A DNA stretch of 35,484 bases, taken from contig NZ_CAMBTS010000018.1 in NCBI RefSeq assembly GCF_945870625.1, forward strand, positions 1-35,484. The letters run 5' to 3'. A model generated the notes under the pieces. That model had not been told where the DNA came from, ran no database searches, and worked only from the letters and a program-made list of their open reading frames with translations. Below, piece after piece: positions 339 through 11,096 of this stretch (position 1 is its first letter; the number at the start of each line of letters is the position of its first letter). Both the position numbers and the translations under genes were made by a program. This stretch comes from Novosphingobium sp. Chol11. Its GTDB lineage: Bacteria; Pseudomonadota; Alphaproteobacteria; Sphingomonadales; Sphingomonadaceae.

Positions 339-1658
339 ATGGGCCGCATTGCGACATTGTTTGGGTTTAACGCACTTGGCCAGGCGGTCAGCGGCGATTC
401 CCACAAACGGGGTGGCTTCATGCTGGGGGATGATCTTCAGCCCGCTTCGGAAGACCGCACAGAATTTCATTTTTTGGGCGAATCTCAGAAGCTTATCGAA
501 AAAAGCCTGGTGGATGTGAATTCCGGGCTCTCATTCTTGCAGTCGCTGACCGGCATCGTGGCTTCCATCGAGAAAGAAGTGGCCGGAGCGTTCGAGCGGC
601 ACCGGAAGTTGGCCGTCGACTATTCAGGTTTGAATTATGACTATCAGTTCATAAAAGTAAAATATGACGAAGAATTTACGAAGAATTTAGAAATAAGCAC
701 CGACCTAGGACAGAGTCTAGGTCAGGTTAAGGCGCTAACTCAAGAGATTGATGGCCTGCAAGCTGAATTCGATATCTTGATTCAAAGAGAGCAACTGCTC
801 AATATTTCAAAAAAAGAAGCTGAAGACAGTCTATCTGAGAATTTAATTACAATCTCTTCGATGCAGAGTGAGATTGAGAATCTCGAACTGAACAACAAGT
901 CGCTCCTGTTTCAGGTCGAATCTGACGCCAATCGCATTCTCGAATTGTCGTCCAGCCTGTTGGAGGCAACTCAGACTGCGGTGTTGCTGGCAAAGCGCTG
1001 TGAGAATTTCGAAGACGTTATCAGCAGCAACACGGAAGCTCTTTCGTTGGCGCGTGATTTAAACGAGAAGCTATCGCGCGATAATGAAGAGTTTACGCAA
1101 AAGTTGCTAAAGAGAGAGCAGGAAGTTGCGCAATTGCGAAGCGACTTGACGCAGCGATTTGAAAAAAATCAGCACGACTCCAAGCTCAAAGACCGCGAGC
1201 TGCACGAGTACCGCAATACGATTGATTCACTCAATTCGCGGGTGCAGATGTTTGAGCAGGTGAATGCAAGCGTAAGAGCCGAGAATGAAAAAATTCTCGC
1301 TGAATTGATCAGCCAGAAAGAGGCCAACAAGCAATTGGAGATCACTGCCGGTACGCTTGACCGTAAGCTTTCCCGTTTGAACGCGAACCTCGATTCCGTG
1401 AGAACGGCCAAGGCGCAGGTCGAGCAATCAAGAACGGCGGTAACCAGCCGGCTTGAGAACACCCTCCAGGCTCTGCGCGGTCGTGAAATAGATGTGAAGC
1501 GTCTCGAAAATGAATTGGCTCAGCAATCGGCCGATTTAAATGACCAGAATGCCTCGCAGGATGAAAAGCTGCTGCAGGCAAATTCCCAGATCCACGAATT
1601 GAGGCGGATGCTGGTATTGAAGCAGGATCAAATCAATTTCATGGAATCGAATCTGTGA
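339..1658 (+). CDS. Crescentin-like coiled-coil (intermediate-filament-like) protein
   Basis: The protein has 439 residues. A short head of about 45 residues (MGRIATLFGF...) precedes a nearly unbroken coiled coil to the C-terminus, rich in Leu, Glu, Lys, Gln, Asn and Ser and with almost no Pro after the head. There is no signal peptide and no membrane segment. The opening helix (IEKSLVDVNSGLSFLQSL, then IEKEVAGAFERHRKL) and the total length resemble the layout of crescentin, the Caulobacter curvature filament of about 430-460 residues. This is similarity of design recalled from memory, not an alignment. ATG 339 is preferred over TTG 318 because GAGAGGG lies about 12 bases before it. The gene is AT-richer than its surroundings, especially around 640-860. 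The next gene, a truncated bactofilin, starts 10 bp later, which supports a cytoskeletal role. An SMC-like or other structural coiled-coil protein remains possible. Confidence 0.6.
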   Translation: MGRIATLFGFNALGQAVSGDSHKRGGFMLGDDLQPASEDRTEFHFLGESQKLIEKSLVDVNSGLSFLQSLTGIVASIEKEVAGAFERHRKLAVDYSGLNYDYQFIKVKYDEEFTKNLEISTDLGQSLGQVKALTQEIDGLQAEFDILIQREQLLNISKKEAEDSLSENLITISSMQSEIENLELNNKSLLFQVESDANRILELSSSLLEATQTAVLLAKRCENFEDVISSNTEALSLARDLNEKLSRDNEEFTQKLLKREQEVAQLRSDLTQRFEKNQHDSKLKDRELHEYRNTIDSLNSRVQMFEQVNASVRAENEKILAELISQKEANKQLEITAGTLDRKLSRLNANLDSVRTAKAQVEQSRTAVTSRLENTLQALRGREIDVKRLENELAQQSADLNDQNASQDEKLLQANSQIHELRRMLVLKQDQINFMESNL

Positions 1659-1668
1659 CAGTGCCGAC

Positions 1669-1803
1669 ATGTTTAATTTGGAAGAACTGCGAAATTACTT
1701 GAAATCTCTTGGCTCATTTTTTGGAGTTTCCGAGGATAGAAACTCAAGGCGGGTTTCATTCATCCAAAGCGATGTTGTCATAAATGGGTCGGTGTCTTCT
1801 GAG
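1669..1803 (+). pseudogene. Bactofilin gene, 5' remnant cut by IS21 element
   Basis: The frame opens at ATG 1669, 10 bp after the coiled-coil gene, and gives 45 host residues before the IS end. It then reads four codons into the element and stops at 1816-1818. The remnant ends VSFIQSDVVINGSVSSE, which matches the first strand of the bactofilin (DUF583) beta-helix, typically S-x-I-G-x-D-x-x-I-x-G-N-I-x-S. The preceding 28 residues would be the usual short unstructured tail. Bactofilins are membrane-associated polymers that scaffold cell-wall and shape machinery. More than half of a normal protein of about 110-180 residues is missing, so it cannot fold as a filament subunit. The assignment rests on a short motif. 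Confidence 0.5.
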
Positions 1804-1830
1804 TGTGCACGGCGGTGACAAACCAGGCCA
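1804..1830 (+). repeat. Left terminal inverted repeat of IS21 element
   Basis: This is the outermost left end, starting TGTGCACGG and ending in CCAGGCCA. It pairs with the right end at 4382-4408, with about 20 of 27 positions matching. By analogy with IS21 it is the site bound and cut by IstA. Confidence 0.75.
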
Positions 1831-1857
1831 TTGGATCGTCGGCAGAGTGCCGATGAG

Positions 1858-1881
1858 GGCGGTGTAAAACCCGGCCATTGG
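1858..1881 (+). repeat. Subterminal repeat at the left end of the IS21 element
   Basis: This 24-base copy (GGCGGTGTAAAACCCGGCCA and four more bases) repeats 1811-1834 with 21 of 24 matches. A related inverted copy sits at 4351-4377. It is probably a second transposase binding site. Confidence 0.7.
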
Positions 1882-1911
1882 TTAGGCTGGTCCTTTTGGG
1901 GGCGGCCGGGG

Positions 1912-3411
1912 ATGTTTGGCGTGGACAACTATGCCGCGGTACGGCGTTTCGTTTTTGTCGAGGGCCACAGCCGGCGTGAGGCGGCGCGGGTTTTCGGGTT
2001 GAGCCGGGAGACGGTGCTGAAGATGTGCCGGTTCTCGTTGCCGCCGGGCTACACGCGGACGGCGCCGGTGGCGAAGCCCAAGCTGGGCACGCTGCTACCG
2101 GTGATCGTTACGATCCTGGAGGCAGACCGGACTGGGCCGGTGAAGCAGCGGCACACGGCGAAGCGGATATTCGAGCGGCTGCGCGACGAGCATGACTTCA
2201 GCGGCGGCTACACGGTGGTGAAGGACTATGTCCGCATCTGCCGGGCGCGCGGCCGCGAGACATTCGTGCCGCTGGCGCACCCACCCGGGCATGGCCAAGT
2301 GGATTTTGGCGAGGCGGTCGCGGTGATCGGGGGCGTCCGGCAGAAGATCCACTTCTTCTGCATGGACCTGCCGCAATCGGACGCGTGCTTTGTAAAGGCG
2401 TATCCGCGCGAGACAACCGAGGCGTTCCTCGACGGCCATGTGTCGGCGTTCGCGTTCTTCGGCGGCGTGCCGCTGTCGCTGCTCTACGACAACACCACGA
2501 TCGCGGTCGCCAAGATATGCGGCGACGGCAAACGCGAGCGGACGCGGGCGTTCACCGAGTTGGTCAGCCATTATCTGTTCGCCGACCGCTTTGGTCGTCC
2601 TGGCAAGGGTAACGACAAGGGCAAGGTCGAGGGCCTGGTGAAGTACTCGCGGTTGAACTTCATGGTGCCGATTCCGGAGGCGGCAAGCTTCGATGATCTA
2701 AATGCGATGCTGGCGATGCGCTGCCGCGCCCGCCAGACCGAGCACGCCGGCCGTCATGCCGAGACGATCGGCGAACGACTGGTGGCTGACACAGCGGCGC
2801 TGCGCACACTGCCGGCAGTGCCGCTGGAGCCCTGCGAGAAGCGCAGCGGCCGCGTATCGTCGACGGCGCTCGTGCGCTATCGCTGCAACGATTACTCGGT
2901 CCCGACGCGCTATGGCTTCCAGGAGGTCATGGTAAAAGGCTTCGTCGATGAAGTCGTGATCTTGTGCGCCGGCAAGATCGTGGCCCGGCATCTGCGCTCC
3001 TATGCCGAGGGCGCCTTCATCGCCGACCCGCTGCATTACCTGGCGCTGATCGAGATGAAGCCGAATGCGCTCGACCAGGCGGCCGCCCTGCAGAACTGGG
3101 ACCTGCCGGAGGTGTTCCAGCATCTGCGCCATCTGCTCGAGGCGCGGATGGGGAACAAGGGCAAGCGCGAGTTCATCCAGGTGCTGCGGCTGCTCGAGGC
3201 GATGCCAAAGGAGGTTGTCACCTATGCCGTCACCGAGGCCATCCATCTGGGCGCCATCGGCTTTGACGCGGTCAAGCTGATCGCGCTGGCGCGCACTGAG
3301 CGGCGGCCGGTGCGGCTCGACCTGGCGGCGTATCCGCATCTGCCAAGGCTTACGGTGCAGACGACGCGCGCTGCGGATTATGCGGCGCTGGTGCCGGGGA
3401 TAGCGGCATGA
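1912..3411 (+). CDS. istA: IS21-family transposase IstA
   Basis: The protein has 499 residues and is the DDE transposase that cuts and joins the IS21 ends. An N-terminal helix-turn-helix (HSRREAARVFGLSRETVLKM) is followed by an RNase-H-like catalytic core. The acidic triad is visible as the Asp in GQVDFGEA, the Asp in LLYDNTT and the Glu in KGKVEGLVKYSR. The C-terminal part contains the SVPTRYGF segment common in IstA proteins. ATG 1912 is preferred because GGGGGCGGCCGGGG lies just before it and the product then starts MFGVDNYAAVRRF, a normal IstA opening. The frame is open further upstream but that part runs through the terminal repeats. The stop overlaps the istB start (ATGA at 3408-3411), so the two are translationally coupled. 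Confidence 0.93.
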   Translation: MFGVDNYAAVRRFVFVEGHSRREAARVFGLSRETVLKMCRFSLPPGYTRTAPVAKPKLGTLLPVIVTILEADRTGPVKQRHTAKRIFERLRDEHDFSGGYTVVKDYVRICRARGRETFVPLAHPPGHGQVDFGEAVAVIGGVRQKIHFFCMDLPQSDACFVKAYPRETTEAFLDGHVSAFAFFGGVPLSLLYDNTTIAVAKICGDGKRERTRAFTELVSHYLFADRFGRPGKGNDKGKVEGLVKYSRLNFMVPIPEAASFDDLNAMLAMRCRARQTEHAGRHAETIGERLVADTAALRTLPAVPLEPCEKRSGRVSSTALVRYRCNDYSVPTRYGFQEVMVKGFVDEVVILCAGKIVARHLRSYAEGAFIADPLHYLALIEMKPNALDQAAALQNWDLPEVFQHLRHLLEARMGNKGKREFIQVLRLLEAMPKEVVTYAVTEAIHLGAIGFDAVKLIALARTERRPVRLDLAAYPHLPRLTVQTTRAADYAALVPGIAA

Positions 3412-4280
3412 CCGGCAAGACGGCACCCGACACGCTGCCTGCGGGCACGACAAGCGGCACCCCGCAGGTACTGCTGGCCCATCACCTCAAGCAACTGAAG
3501 CTGCCGACGGTGTTGCGCGAATACGACAAGGTCGCGCGCGAATGCGCCCGCGATGGCGTCGATCATCCGCGTTATCTGCTGCGGCTGATCGAGCTCGAAC
3601 TGATCGACCGCGAACGCCGGACGGTGGAGCGACGCATCCGCGCCGCGCGGTTCCCGGCCACGAAGAGCTTCGACACCTTCGACTTAGCCGCCATCCCCGG
3701 GCTCAACAAGATGCTCGTCCTTGAGCTGGCCCGCTGCGAATATATCCTGCGCCGCGAGAACATCATTGCGCTGGGCAACAGCGGCACCGGCAAGACCCAC
3801 GTCGCCCTCGCTCTCGGCCTGGCTGCCTGCCAGAAGGGGTTTACCGTCGCGTTCACCACCGCCGCCGCGCTGGTCAGCCAGTTGCTGGAAGCCCGCGACG
3901 AACGGCGGCTGCTTAAGCTCCAGCGCGACCTGGCATCGGTCAAGCTGCTGATCATCGACGAACTCGGCTACGTCCCGTTGTCACCGACCGGCGCCGAGCT
4001 GCTGTTCGAGACCTTCTCCCAGCGCTACGAACGCGGCTCGACGATCGTCACATCGAACCTGCCGTTCGAGGACTGGACCTCGGTGCTGGGCTCCGAACGA
4101 CTGACTGGCGCGCTGCTGGACCGGCTCACCCACCACGTCAGCATCCTCGCCATGAACGGCGACAGCTATCGTCTCAAGGAATCCACCGGCCGCCGCCGCG
4201 CCGCCGCCACCCAAGCCGGAGCGGTCCAAAACCAGGCCACCGCCGTCGACCCCGATACGGGCGAAATTACCCAAGCCTGA
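3408..4280 (+). CDS. istB: IS21-family helper ATPase IstB
   Basis: The protein has 290 residues and is the DnaA/DnaC-like AAA+ ATPase that selects the target and activates IstA. Walker A is GNSGTGKT (residues 123-130) and Walker B is LLIIDELGY (about 180-188). An N-terminal helical segment (HHLKQLKLPTVLREYD) is typical of IstB. A likely sensor region (STIVTSNLPFEDW) and an arginine-containing segment (LLDRLTHHVSIL) follow. The start codon overlaps the istA stop by 4 bp. The C-terminal tail (RRRAAATQAGAVQNQ and onwards) is low in complexity and varies among IstB proteins. No frameshift or loss of key residues is visible. Confidence 0.93.
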   Translation: MTGKTAPDTLPAGTTSGTPQVLLAHHLKQLKLPTVLREYDKVARECARDGVDHPRYLLRLIELELIDRERRTVERRIRAARFPATKSFDTFDLAAIPGLNKMLVLELARCEYILRRENIIALGNSGTGKTHVALALGLAACQKGFTVAFTTAAALVSQLLEARDERRLLKLQRDLASVKLLIIDELGYVPLSPTGAELLFETFSQRYERGSTIVTSNLPFEDWTSVLGSERLTGALLDRLTHHVSILAMNGDSYRLKESTGRRRAAATQAGAVQNQATAVDPDTGEITQA

Positions 4281-4299
4281 CCCCCATCGCCGAAGACGC

Positions 4300-4337
4300 T
4301 TTACAAAAAGGCCCCCGATCGGGGGCCTTTTTGTAAA
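4300..4337 (+). terminator. Palindromic terminator after istB
   Basis: A perfect 38-base palindrome with A-tracts on the left arm, a GGCCCCCGATCGGGGGCC core and a T-tract on the right arm. The symmetry means it can act as an intrinsic terminator on both strands. It lies 19 bases after the istB stop, inside the IS, so it would also stop transcription entering from the right. Confidence 0.85.
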
Positions 4338-4350
4338 CAACCCCGCCGCG

Positions 4351-4377
4351 CCATGAGTGGCCTGCTTTTACACCGCC
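4351..4377 (-). repeat. Subterminal inverted repeat at the right end of the IS21 element
   Basis: The reverse complement reads GGCGGTGTAAAAGCAGGCCA and onwards, matching the left subterminal copy at 1858-1881 closely in its first 20 bases. It is a likely inner IstA binding site. Confidence 0.7.
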
Positions 4378-4381
4378 ACGC

Positions 4382-4408
4382 TGGCCTGGAATCTGACCGG
4401 CGTTGACA
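4382..4408 (-). repeat. Right terminal inverted repeat of IS21 element
   Basis: Its reverse complement begins TGTCAACGCCGGTCAGATTC and ends in CCAGGCCA, matching the left end at 1804-1830 in about 20 of 27 positions. Confidence 0.75.
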
Positions 4409-6882: not shown

Positions 6883-7860
6883 CTACCTCGCAGGTTCAAG
6901 CCTTGTGTTCAGCACCCAGCCGACGTTGTCGTTTTCATCAGCCACTTCCCACCAAATGCCCTCTTTGTTGCCGGTCGGATATACCGTCGAGCCCGGAGTC
7001 AATGCGCGAACAACCCGGCCTGCAGCCGCTGGCGTTTTGCGCATAGTGACCGGGCCCAACGCAACATAGCTTTTCGTTGGCGCCGCTTCTGCCGTCCCAG
7101 CGCTTCCTTCCTCAATACCGCCAAGGTCGGCAACCAATTTGCTGTAGGCATCAATGAAGGCAAGTGTCACGATACGCCCAATATCAGTATTGTCATAGCC
7201 GCCACCGACAGCACCGACACCAACACCTCCAAAGAAGCCGCCACCGGCACCAAAGCTAACGTCGTTTTTCGCGGCATACCCCTCTACGGTAGCAATCGTC
7301 TCGGTTGTGCGCACGTTAGTTACTGAAAGAACGGTGTTCGCCTCGAGCTTGCGACTTCGAATCCCACCAAGCAAGCCTCCGATCGGTCCGCCGACTATCC
7401 CGCCGATGGCACCTCCGGCACCGCTACCCTGAGCATTGCCATTGGAAGCCTGAACCTCGGCGACGAGGACATAGTCGGCAGCCTTGATTTGATTTTGACC
7501 CACATTCGAGCGGCGCTGCAAACCCAATGAGCCGCCAATGTCACGCTCGCGTTGCGCGGCGCTCAGACCGCTTCCGCGGTCAACAAGACTGAAGCACCCC
7601 GAACGCTGCACGATCACCTTCAACAACTTTTGGGGGGGAGCGAGGTTGAATTGGGTCCATCCATATGGATCATCGCCATCCATGATCGAAATCGTACCCA
7701 ACTTTCGGGCGCAATGAGGCACATCGGTTACCGCCTTACGCTGCAATCTTTCGGCATTGGAGGGTTTTGCTTGCTTGGGCTCGGCGCTGACCGGCGCAGC
7801 GAGCATCGCTTGGGCGGCAACAATCAAAACAATCAAGCTTGCAAGTGGCGATCTTTTCAC
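6883..7860 (-). CDS. Exported CsgG-like protein with C-terminal SH3-type domain
   Basis: The protein has 325 residues and starts at GTG 7860. The start was chosen because GGAG lies five bases upstream (7866-7869) and the product opens with a clean signal peptide (MKRSPLASLIVLIVAAQ, cleavage near VSA/EPKQ). Residues about 50-250 look like the CsgG family: an initial strand (KLGTISIMD), the VIVQRSGCFSLVDRG segment, a Gly-rich linker (GAGGAIGGIVGGPIGGLLGG) and a conserved IVTLAFIDAYSKLVADLG helix. The last 65 residues (YVALGPVTMRKTPAAAGRVV...) resemble a bacterial SH3 domain, with GIWWEVADENDNVGWV as its hallmark. There is no lipobox Cys, unlike curli CsgG, and no csgA/B/E/F genes are nearby, so a curli secretion role is unlikely. 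An envelope or peptidoglycan-associated role is inferred. Confidence 0.75.
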   Translation of the reverse strand: MKRSPLASLIVLIVAAQAMLAAPVSAEPKQAKPSNAERLQRKAVTDVPHCARKLGTISIMDGDDPYGWTQFNLAPPQKLLKVIVQRSGCFSLVDRGSGLSAAQRERDIGGSLGLQRRSNVGQNQIKAADYVLVAEVQASNGNAQGSGAGGAIGGIVGGPIGGLLGGIRSRKLEANTVLSVTNVRTTETIATVEGYAAKNDVSFGAGGGFFGGVGVGAVGGGYDNTDIGRIVTLAFIDAYSKLVADLGGIEEGSAGTAEAAPTKSYVALGPVTMRKTPAAAGRVVRALTPGSTVYPTGNKEGIWWEVADENDNVGWVLNTRLEPAR

Positions 7861-8013
7861 CGTGACTCCAATCAAAAAACGGTCCCACGTCCATGGATAC
7901 CCATAATCTACTTTCTTGGGCAATAGGCAACCCGAACAGGTCAATAATGAACTCGTCATTTGCATGTCAGTTTGACGACGGACAGCCGCGCAATGCCATG
8001 GGTGATCAAGCTG

Positions 8014-10055: not shown

Positions 10056-11096
10056 CTAATTCGAAGCGGTGGATGACGATTCTGAAATTACCGGTGTGCG
10101 CGCTTCCTCAAATGAGGATGACTCAGAGGGTAAGGCTGCCCGAGGCCGAGGACGGGATGTCCGCGCGGCACGAGGATACGGCGCTGTGGGTGTGGAAGTC
10201 GAGGCAGCCGTTGGTCTCAAATCCAATGATCCCAAGCGCGTCCGCAACGATGCAGCATCGATCGGAACATCTTTCATGATCTTCTGTTCGGTAGCCAATC
10301 GGGGAACAGGTTGTCCGCCAATCGTGATCGCTAGCGCGTCGGGCCTGCCGGTCCAGAGCTTCGGGCCTCGCGCCAACTCCGGCAAAGTATAACTCTCCCC
10401 TTGCGCAAGCTGCTTTTGCAGGAGCTGCGTGCCCGTGCTGTCATAAAACTTGACCCATACTCCTGATTCAAGCGCAGTAAAAACCACGGGTTCAAAGGGC
10501 GCCGTCCCAGAGGGTGCCGACGGAGTGGGTTGTGCTGCTGCAAGAGGCGCTACTGGCCGCTGATCTTCGAGACTTACCAAGGCGGGCAGCTCGGCTGATG
10601 GCCAATAATAGCCCTGCCAGAAGACCAGCCCCATCGCCGCAATGCCAAAAACCAGCGCCAGCGCCAGCCAAGTCACAAGCCGGGAAGGTGTCTTGGCAGG
10701 ATCACCAACCTCAAATTGCTGGAATACCCGCGGTTCAGCGCGCGGTGTTGCCGTTTCGAGTTCGCGACGCACGGCATCGGCAATCTCGCTTTCGTCAAGG
10801 CCGACAACCCGCGCATAGCCGCGCGCGAAGCCCAACGCATACGGTCGCCCCGGAAGGCTGGCATAGTCTCCGGCCTCAATCGCTTCGACATACCGAAACG
10901 TAATGCGCGTTCGGGCCGCTATTTCGCGAAGCGACAGCCCCAATGCCTCGCGCGCCGCCCGCAGCCGGATAGGCACGGGTGCATTGGCGGCGTATGATAA
11001 TGCCGCGTCATCCCTTGCGACTGGTGTGGCCGCAAGATCGCTTGCTGCGATTTCATGCCCGTCGGCAGGGCCAGCGGCCTTTGGTTCGTCGCTCAT
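10056..11096 (-). CDS. RodZ-like helix-turn-helix membrane protein
   Basis: The protein has 346 residues. The N-terminal cytoplasmic HTH_25-type domain (about 42-105, LRAAREALGLSLREIAARTR, then YVEAIEAGDYASLPGRPYAL) is the RodZ hallmark that binds MreB. One membrane segment follows (about 139-160). The periplasmic DUF4115-like domain contains GVWVKFYDSTGTQLLQKQLA and LWTGRPDALAITIGGQPVP. The tail is Pro/Thr/Ser/Arg-rich and probably disordered. RodZ anchors the MreB cytoskeleton for rod-shape growth. In alphaproteobacteria this family is often annotated only as a HTH-domain protein. It is upstream of cpoB in the same direction, with a gap of about 135 bp. Confidence 0.85.
   Translation of the reverse strand: MSDEPKAAGPADGHEIAASDLAATPVARDDAALSYAANAPVPIRLRAAREALGLSLREIAARTRITFRYVEAIEAGDYASLPGRPYALGFARGYARVVGLDESEIADAVRRELETATPRAEPRVFQQFEVGDPAKTPSRLVTWLALALVFGIAAMGLVFWQGYYWPSAELPALVSLEDQRPVAPLAAAQPTPSAPSGTAPFEPVVFTALESGVWVKFYDSTGTQLLQKQLAQGESYTLPELARGPKLWTGRPDALAITIGGQPVPRLATEQKIMKDVPIDAASLRTRLGSLDLRPTAASTSTPTAPYPRAARTSRPRPRAALPSESSSFEEARTPVISESSSTASN

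Follow-up and report, generated by a model that had tools for sequence, protein, structure and literature searches.

Caulobacter crescentin (CreS), a protein of about 440 residues, combines a short head with a long, nearly unbroken coiled-coil rod. Charbon 2009 is reportedly the original source for its co-immunoprecipitation with MreB and for the A22 result. As reported in PMC3137890, crescentin co-immunoprecipitates with MreB and its attachment to the envelope is lost on A22 treatment. A 2024 structure paper (PMC10873595) states that membrane attachment of crescentin needs the positively charged first 27 residues and that direct membrane binding could not be shown; MreB is presented there as one candidate anchor, with a complex that could not be predicted and with curved E. 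coli cells as a counter-argument to this role. A second described system is found in deep-branching magnetotactic bacteria, where Mad20, 23, 25 and 26 form a network with MamK and Mad28, and where Mad28 is reported to interact only with the coiled-coil protein Mad25 in a two-hybrid assay (PMC12748827). The pairing of bactofilins with M23 endopeptidases is the topic of PMC10945521.

We analysed a stretch of 35,484 nucleotides from Novosphingobium sp. Chol11, hereafter called the window, which is a contig read from its first base and belongs to a draft assembly of 3.2 Mb (179 contigs, 93.8% complete). It carries the following gene:

339 to 1658, forward strand: long coiled-coil protein P0001, 439 residues (from translation, AlphaFold2 model, period of 3.5 and homologues)
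Layout of P0001: head helix at about residues 2 to 18, a linker, and a rod at about residues 38 to 438

The frame opens with an ATG and closes with a stop codon at 1656-1658. Residues 36 to 439 are free of proline and the hydrophobic residues follow a period of 3.5, at a strength that 0 of 200 shuffles reached. The AlphaFold2 model, obtained from a two-row alignment (mean pLDDT 71.3), comprises a low-confidence helix at residues 2-18, followed by the linker, and rod helices at 38-153, 158-279 and 285-438. Translation, period and model thus bear out the 439-residue coiled coil announced in the preliminary description, and P0001 is the sole rod of at least 100 residues in the six frames of the window. 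Four homologues, 30-35% identical to P0001, share with it a head motif, M-(G/A)-x-(I/L)-x-x-(L/I)-F, together with scattered invariant columns in the rod; all five family members have the period of 3.5 and a proline-free stretch of 404-429 residues. The head motif, whose moment is 0.32-0.54 over 11 residues (computed without a control set), could form an amphipathic membrane helix.

In size and layout the family resembles CreS, since the short head and the long coiled-coil rod recur in the proline-free stretch and period of all five members. The likeness ends at the family test: against the Pfam crescentin rod (PF19220, Rod_CreS), with a cut-off of 100 bits, P0001 scores 10.9 bits and its homologues in genomes G017 and G862 score 8 and 21.2 bits, so that the three members scored lie at 8-21 bits. 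At E up to 1, Rod_CreS matches four of the five members (best E 0.0001) and is, with ATG16, one of the Pfam models that weakly match most of them. Net charge over the first 27 residues is +2 in P0001 and 0, -2, -2 and -2 in the other four members; over residues 1-37, the members carry 0, -1, -1, -4 and -4. A profile search of the PDB returned prefoldin, lamin and further coiled coils but no crescentin-named chain at E up to 1, in a set from which crescentin chains are possibly absent. With scores below the family cut-off and a head of mixed charge, we describe the protein as crescentin-like in layout and not as a crescentin, and the preliminary description, which had called it crescentin-like, holds in that narrower sense. 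The coiled coils are hit as well by models of SMC and Rad50, with E values as low as 1.1e-10 (lower than the 1e-4 that is the best E of the crescentin model); these matches were set aside as the usual coiled-coil noise. Comparison of the predicted structure of P0001 with solved ones retrieved SMC coiled coils and other long helices and was uninformative on kinship.

The family is rare. A search with P0001 among 118 relatives found the window's own genome and G017, at 36% identity in that search; in a collection of genome contigs, the single-sequence query retrieved no relatives and a two-row query a single locus, on what we take to be the contig of G017. With a three-row alignment (E up to 1e-6), three of 195 genomes of the genus carry a member, and a family sample of 397 genomes adds G969 and G1039, which belong to another genus (E near 1e-114). 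Genome G327 also matched (E 9e-6, profile positions 56-217, in a frame of 822 residues), a match that we put down to general coiled-coil likeness and left out of the count. At higher ranks, the window's own genome was the sole match both among 396 genomes of the order (two-row alignment, E up to 1e-10) and among 385 of the class (two-row alignment, E up to 1e-6), samples that were drawn from larger groups and may overlap. Viral contigs contained no relative; on plasmids, P0001 had no match at E up to 1e-3 and the coiled coil of G862 only an archaeal SMC-related one (E 0.3). Because G969 and G1039 are closely related, the four relatives represent three lineages.

We then compared what follows the coiled coil in each of them. 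In G862, a coiled coil of 456 residues is followed, after a gap of 18 bp, by a bactofilin-like gene of 101 residues, and then by an mreB gene of 346 residues that overlaps it by 17 bp. This mini-bactofilin scores 28.7 bits against the Pfam bactofilin family (PF04519, cut-off 27.9) and covers profile positions 1-50 of 98, falling short of a complete bactofilin core. In G969 and G1039, the gene next to the coiled coil is that of an MreB, with 140-147 bp between the longest frames, and tblastn with the mini-bactofilin found no bactofilin (best E 4.8). In G017, whose assembly is 75% complete, the next gene encodes a CHAP-domain protein (52 bits; L011:4843-5508, forward strand), possibly a wall hydrolase, and the 6-kb contig contains no bactofilin by tblastn. 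A linked MreB is thus present in three of the four relatives and a bactofilin in one, and the recurrent pair is therefore the coiled coil and a dedicated MreB; from gene order, the bactofilin would be an optional middle gene of a coiled coil-MreB module. Intact forms are accordingly of two kinds, coiled coil-mini-bactofilin-MreB (G862) and coiled coil-MreB (G969 and G1039, close genomes of another genus), and the module is known from one intact triad, two intact pairs of one genus and two reduced loci. The preliminary description had proposed a two-filament module of coiled coil and bactofilin. Its gene order does exist intact in one relative, G862, while the other three have the coiled coil with no bactofilin neighbour, which goes part of the way to refuting the proposal; it was also incomplete, as the MreB paralogue is a third part and the more constant partner (3/4 against 1/4).

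The locus of G862 came to light through a bactofilin survey of the genus, in which 181 of 195 genomes match a bactofilin and three are listed with two. Only the second place of G862, directly behind a coiled coil of the same family and ahead of the MreB, passes the cut-off, taken with its neighbours in the frame; the second places in the other two genomes fall within frames of 1485 and 2109 residues. A weak bactofilin-like place in G030 lies among unrelated genes and was dropped. At L046 (G012), L047 (G900) and L048 (G030), the best bactofilin match is partial or weak, perhaps reflecting contig ends or decayed copies. None of 36 ordinary bactofilin loci has a rod of at least 100 residues in the stretch covered. 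The genome of the window itself also carries an ordinary bactofilin, preceded by an M23-like gene. Loci joining a bactofilin to an M23 endopeptidase are of the LmdC type; the mini-bactofilin shares its Pfam family with the bactofilins of such loci but, unlike them, corresponds to half the profile and is flanked by the coiled coil and the MreB.

The protein linked to the coiled coil is a bona fide member of the MreB family: in G862 it scores 400 bits against PF06723 (cut-off 27) and 401 bits against TIGR00904 (cut-off 365.75), and four nucleotide-site motifs are intact in all three linked MreBs. It is also an additional copy, since G862, G969 and G1039 each keep an ordinary mreB-mreC locus besides. 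An MreB was found in 76 of the 80 genomes searched, and 17 of them carry at least two. As controls, we used 36 loci centred on mreB genes, canonical or additional, in 19 genomes (20 with mreC, 16 without), covering about 5 kb on each side or up to the contig end; not one of the 36 has a rod of at least 80 residues, a match to the coiled-coil family or a bactofilin. In a tree of 38 MreBs (out of 39 rows; L124, short and at a contig end, was left out), the three linked proteins form one group (93/83), which joins 12 canonical MreBs (97/99) apart from 15 other orphans. The exact place of the G862 MreB is unsure because of long branches (L056 and L115), its own row being long. In the canonical MreBs, 248 columns are conserved in at least 19 of 20 sequences, and the three linked proteins all depart from this at 23 of them; at residue 240 of P0006, these three have a leucine where an arginine is kept in 15 of 15 orphans and at least 19 of 20 canonical proteins. 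Additional MreBs with no mreC beside them occur in 13 other genomes of the family, in a region of the tree separate from the canonical MreBs, at the following loci:

L101, L103, L105, L107, L108, L110, L114, L115: additional MreB loci
L117, L119, L121, L123, L124, L126, L128, L130: additional MreB loci, continued

The linked MreBs resemble these orphans of other Sphingomonadaceae-like genomes in being additional and lacking an adjacent mreC; they differ from them in their place in the tree (15 rows) and in their neighbours, as none of 16 orphan loci has a coiled coil or a bactofilin. The MreB of L115 (G975) is very divergent, with 39% identity to P0006. G1004, from the genus of G969, has a single MreB and is not among the coiled-coil matches, its membership of the sample being deduced.

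The reading that we prefer, and to which we give an even chance, is that these genes may encode a rare accessory filament module, membrane-associated and composed of a coiled coil, an optional mini-bactofilin and an MreB, which would steer wall growth locally and which is broken in the window. The coiled coil would dimerise, and bundles of dimers would make up a filament beneath the inner membrane, held there by the dedicated MreB and by the motif conserved at the N terminus; the MreB would also link the filament to the wall-building machinery, perhaps that of elongation, and the short bactofilin, about half a beta-helix, would help to anchor the filament or to limit it. Wall growth would in this way be biased locally, for curvature or for a polar structure. 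MreB is proposed as an anchor because of the link with crescentin reported in PMC3137890, which stands on co-immunoprecipitation and A22 treatment for CreS and on gene neighbourhood for the present family; the two systems further differ in that the MreB of the module is a dedicated paralogue and that, in one genome, a bactofilin lies in between. The crescentin precedent apart, we counted in favour of this reading the tight spacing of the G862 triad, the MreB of G969 and G1039, the single clade formed by the linked MreBs, their intact motifs, and the absence of comparable arrangements from the control loci (0/36 for mreB and 0/36 for bactofilin). Against it, the full triad is present in one genome only, 140-147 bp separate the longest frames in G969 and G1039, and the three linked MreBs amount to two lineages, with a long branch for G862; to these are added the CHAP neighbour of the G017 coiled coil and the lack of a second MreB both in that genome and in the window's (E up to 1e-60).

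Wall growth need not be the target. The module might instead position something in the cell, such as a compartment, an envelope machine or a chromosome region, an explanation that we find unlikely though it has a precedent: the coiled-coil Mad25 is reported to bind the actin-like Mad28, and such proteins order magnetosome chains (PMC12748827). This network is the nearest precedent that we found, as it joins coiled coils to a second, dedicated actin-like protein. It differs in its partners, which are MamK and Mad28 in the service of magnetosomes there and of the MreB type here. The sequence comparison with that network used the MamK model alone, and the 87.5 bits that the linked MreB of G862 obtains against it (cut-off 400) place the protein with the cell-shape family and not with MamK, which argues against positioning. 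The presence of the coiled-coil family in only 3 of 195 genomes of the genus is what an accessory trait of this sort would give, but no conserved cargo-like gene lies beside the three intact loci, the neighbours in G862 differing from those in G969 and G1039.

It is less likely still that the coiled coil acts by itself, as a scaffold or filament, and that its adjacency to MreB and bactofilin is loose or due to chance. Such a role would suit G017, where neither neighbour is present, as well as the genome of the window, which keeps an open coiled-coil gene with no second MreB; each of these two genomes has one MreB (E up to 1e-60), beside mreC. Chance does not easily account for an MreB placed next to the coiled coil in two lineages whose coiled coils are about 30% identical, nor for the grouping of these MreBs in one clade when 0 of 36 other mreB loci has a coiled coil. 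Downstream of P0001 lies the following gene start:

1669 to 1803, forward strand: probable mini-bactofilin, first 45 codons, truncated by an insertion sequence (from the gene position in G862 and the N-terminal layout)

The gap of 10 bp between the stop codon of P0001 and this ATG is confirmed. The frame has 49 codons before a stop at 1816-1818; of these, the first 45 are original, because the last four and the stop lie in an insertion sequence that starts at 1804. With 45 codons left, the fragment has no match to the Pfam bactofilin family (PF04519) at E up to 10; its sole Pfam match is to an unrelated condensin family (E 0.045), and about 18 of its codons align to a bactofilin model. Aligned to the mini-bactofilin of G862, it obtains a local score of 36; among 5000 shuffles, 61 do as well, and so do 11 of the 2370 other 49-residue peptides that the window yields. 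It starts with MF, and the start of the G862 protein is basic; the two share gene position, similar spacing and N-terminal layout. The bactofilin call is credible because of this same position in G862, and the second gene of the window is probably the start of a bactofilin. The earlier call, which had been made from the fragment, is weak on that ground and has no Pfam match behind it; it gains its standing from the relative. That the fragment is not a bactofilin and that the window never had the triad is, of the explanations considered, the one with the poorest chance, since the missing Pfam match and the 11 equally good window peptides are set against shared position, spacing and layout and against the few shuffles that reach the score. 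Elsewhere in the window, tblastn found neither the rest of the bactofilin nor an MreB (best E 1.3).

The insertion sequence that cuts the gene is composed as follows:

1804 to 4408, forward strand: IS21-family element, ISMdi7-like (from plasmid matches, comparison of ends and single copy in the assembly)
1831 to 3411, forward strand: istA transposase frame, from its longest start
3408 to 4280, forward strand: istB helper ATPase

The true start of istA is probably further in than 1831. A plasmid copy annotated as ISMdi7 is 78.8% identical to the element, whose left end, at 1804, agrees with four of the four plasmid copies read and whose right end, at 4408, agrees with three of them; the element thus has the istA, istB and matching ends of the IS21 family. 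Its flanks, TCTGAG on the left and GCTTTC on the right, contain no target duplication. A duplication of 6 bp is present in the plasmid copy L007, and two others (L009 and L010) have none either, so that the missing duplication in the window is suggestive, and not proof, of a deletion or rearrangement. The assembly contains the element only once, which speaks against a mis-join at a repeat, although an assembly error is conceivable. The IS21 element, probably together with a deletion or rearrangement next to it, took away the remainder of the bactofilin and presumably the MreB as well, so that the coiled-coil gene stands open and without partners; the locus is a remnant, the partners of the coiled coil being gone or unassembled. 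Just after istB, at 4300-4337, a self-complementary stretch of 38 bp precedes T-rich sequence, and G+C-rich palindromes occupy the same place in the four plasmid copies read; by its sequence it looks like a terminator carried by the element.

Some features of the surroundings were also recorded. The G+C content of the P0001 gene is 48.3%, against 58.3% for the window; the module is at 53-57% within surroundings of 62% in G969 and G1039, the coiled-coil gene of G017 at 60.7% against 66.0%, and the whole 17-kb stretch of G862 at about 52%, against 60.3% for its canonical mreB region. The low G+C of the module genes may reflect residue make-up or transfer. RodZ is a known partner of MreB, and a RodZ-like protein (HTH_25 and RodZ_C) is encoded at 10056-11096 of the window (reverse strand), about 5.6 kb from the right end of the IS element; its gene adjoins tilS-like and ftsH genes, in what is probably a normal chromosomal setting. 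Proteins with a CsgG domain are encoded within a few kb of both the window locus (6883-7965, reverse strand) and that of G862 (L056:1808-3229, reverse strand); they are not alike (best E 5.3), and we rejected them as a common part of the module, their presence being probably a coincidence.

The message of the window itself is modest, that of a broken remnant. Taken with its relatives, it raises the possibility, which we put forward tentatively, that some sphingomonads have a dedicated operon of three filament classes, in which a private MreB would anchor a coiled-coil filament to the membrane. The coiled coil would stand for the intermediate-filament-like class, the half-length bactofilin for the second and the MreB-type protein for the actins. 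Among the open-access papers listed by literature searches, none describes such a coiled coil-bactofilin-MreB locus in its title or abstract opening. If true, such an operon would hold, in neighbouring genes, a counterpart of the link between crescentin and MreB, which is as yet unproven in Caulobacter. A crescentin-like coiled coil with a spare MreB of its own would make that link testable without touching the ordinary MreB of the cell, and a half-length bactofilin in the same set would join three filament classes that have mostly been studied apart.
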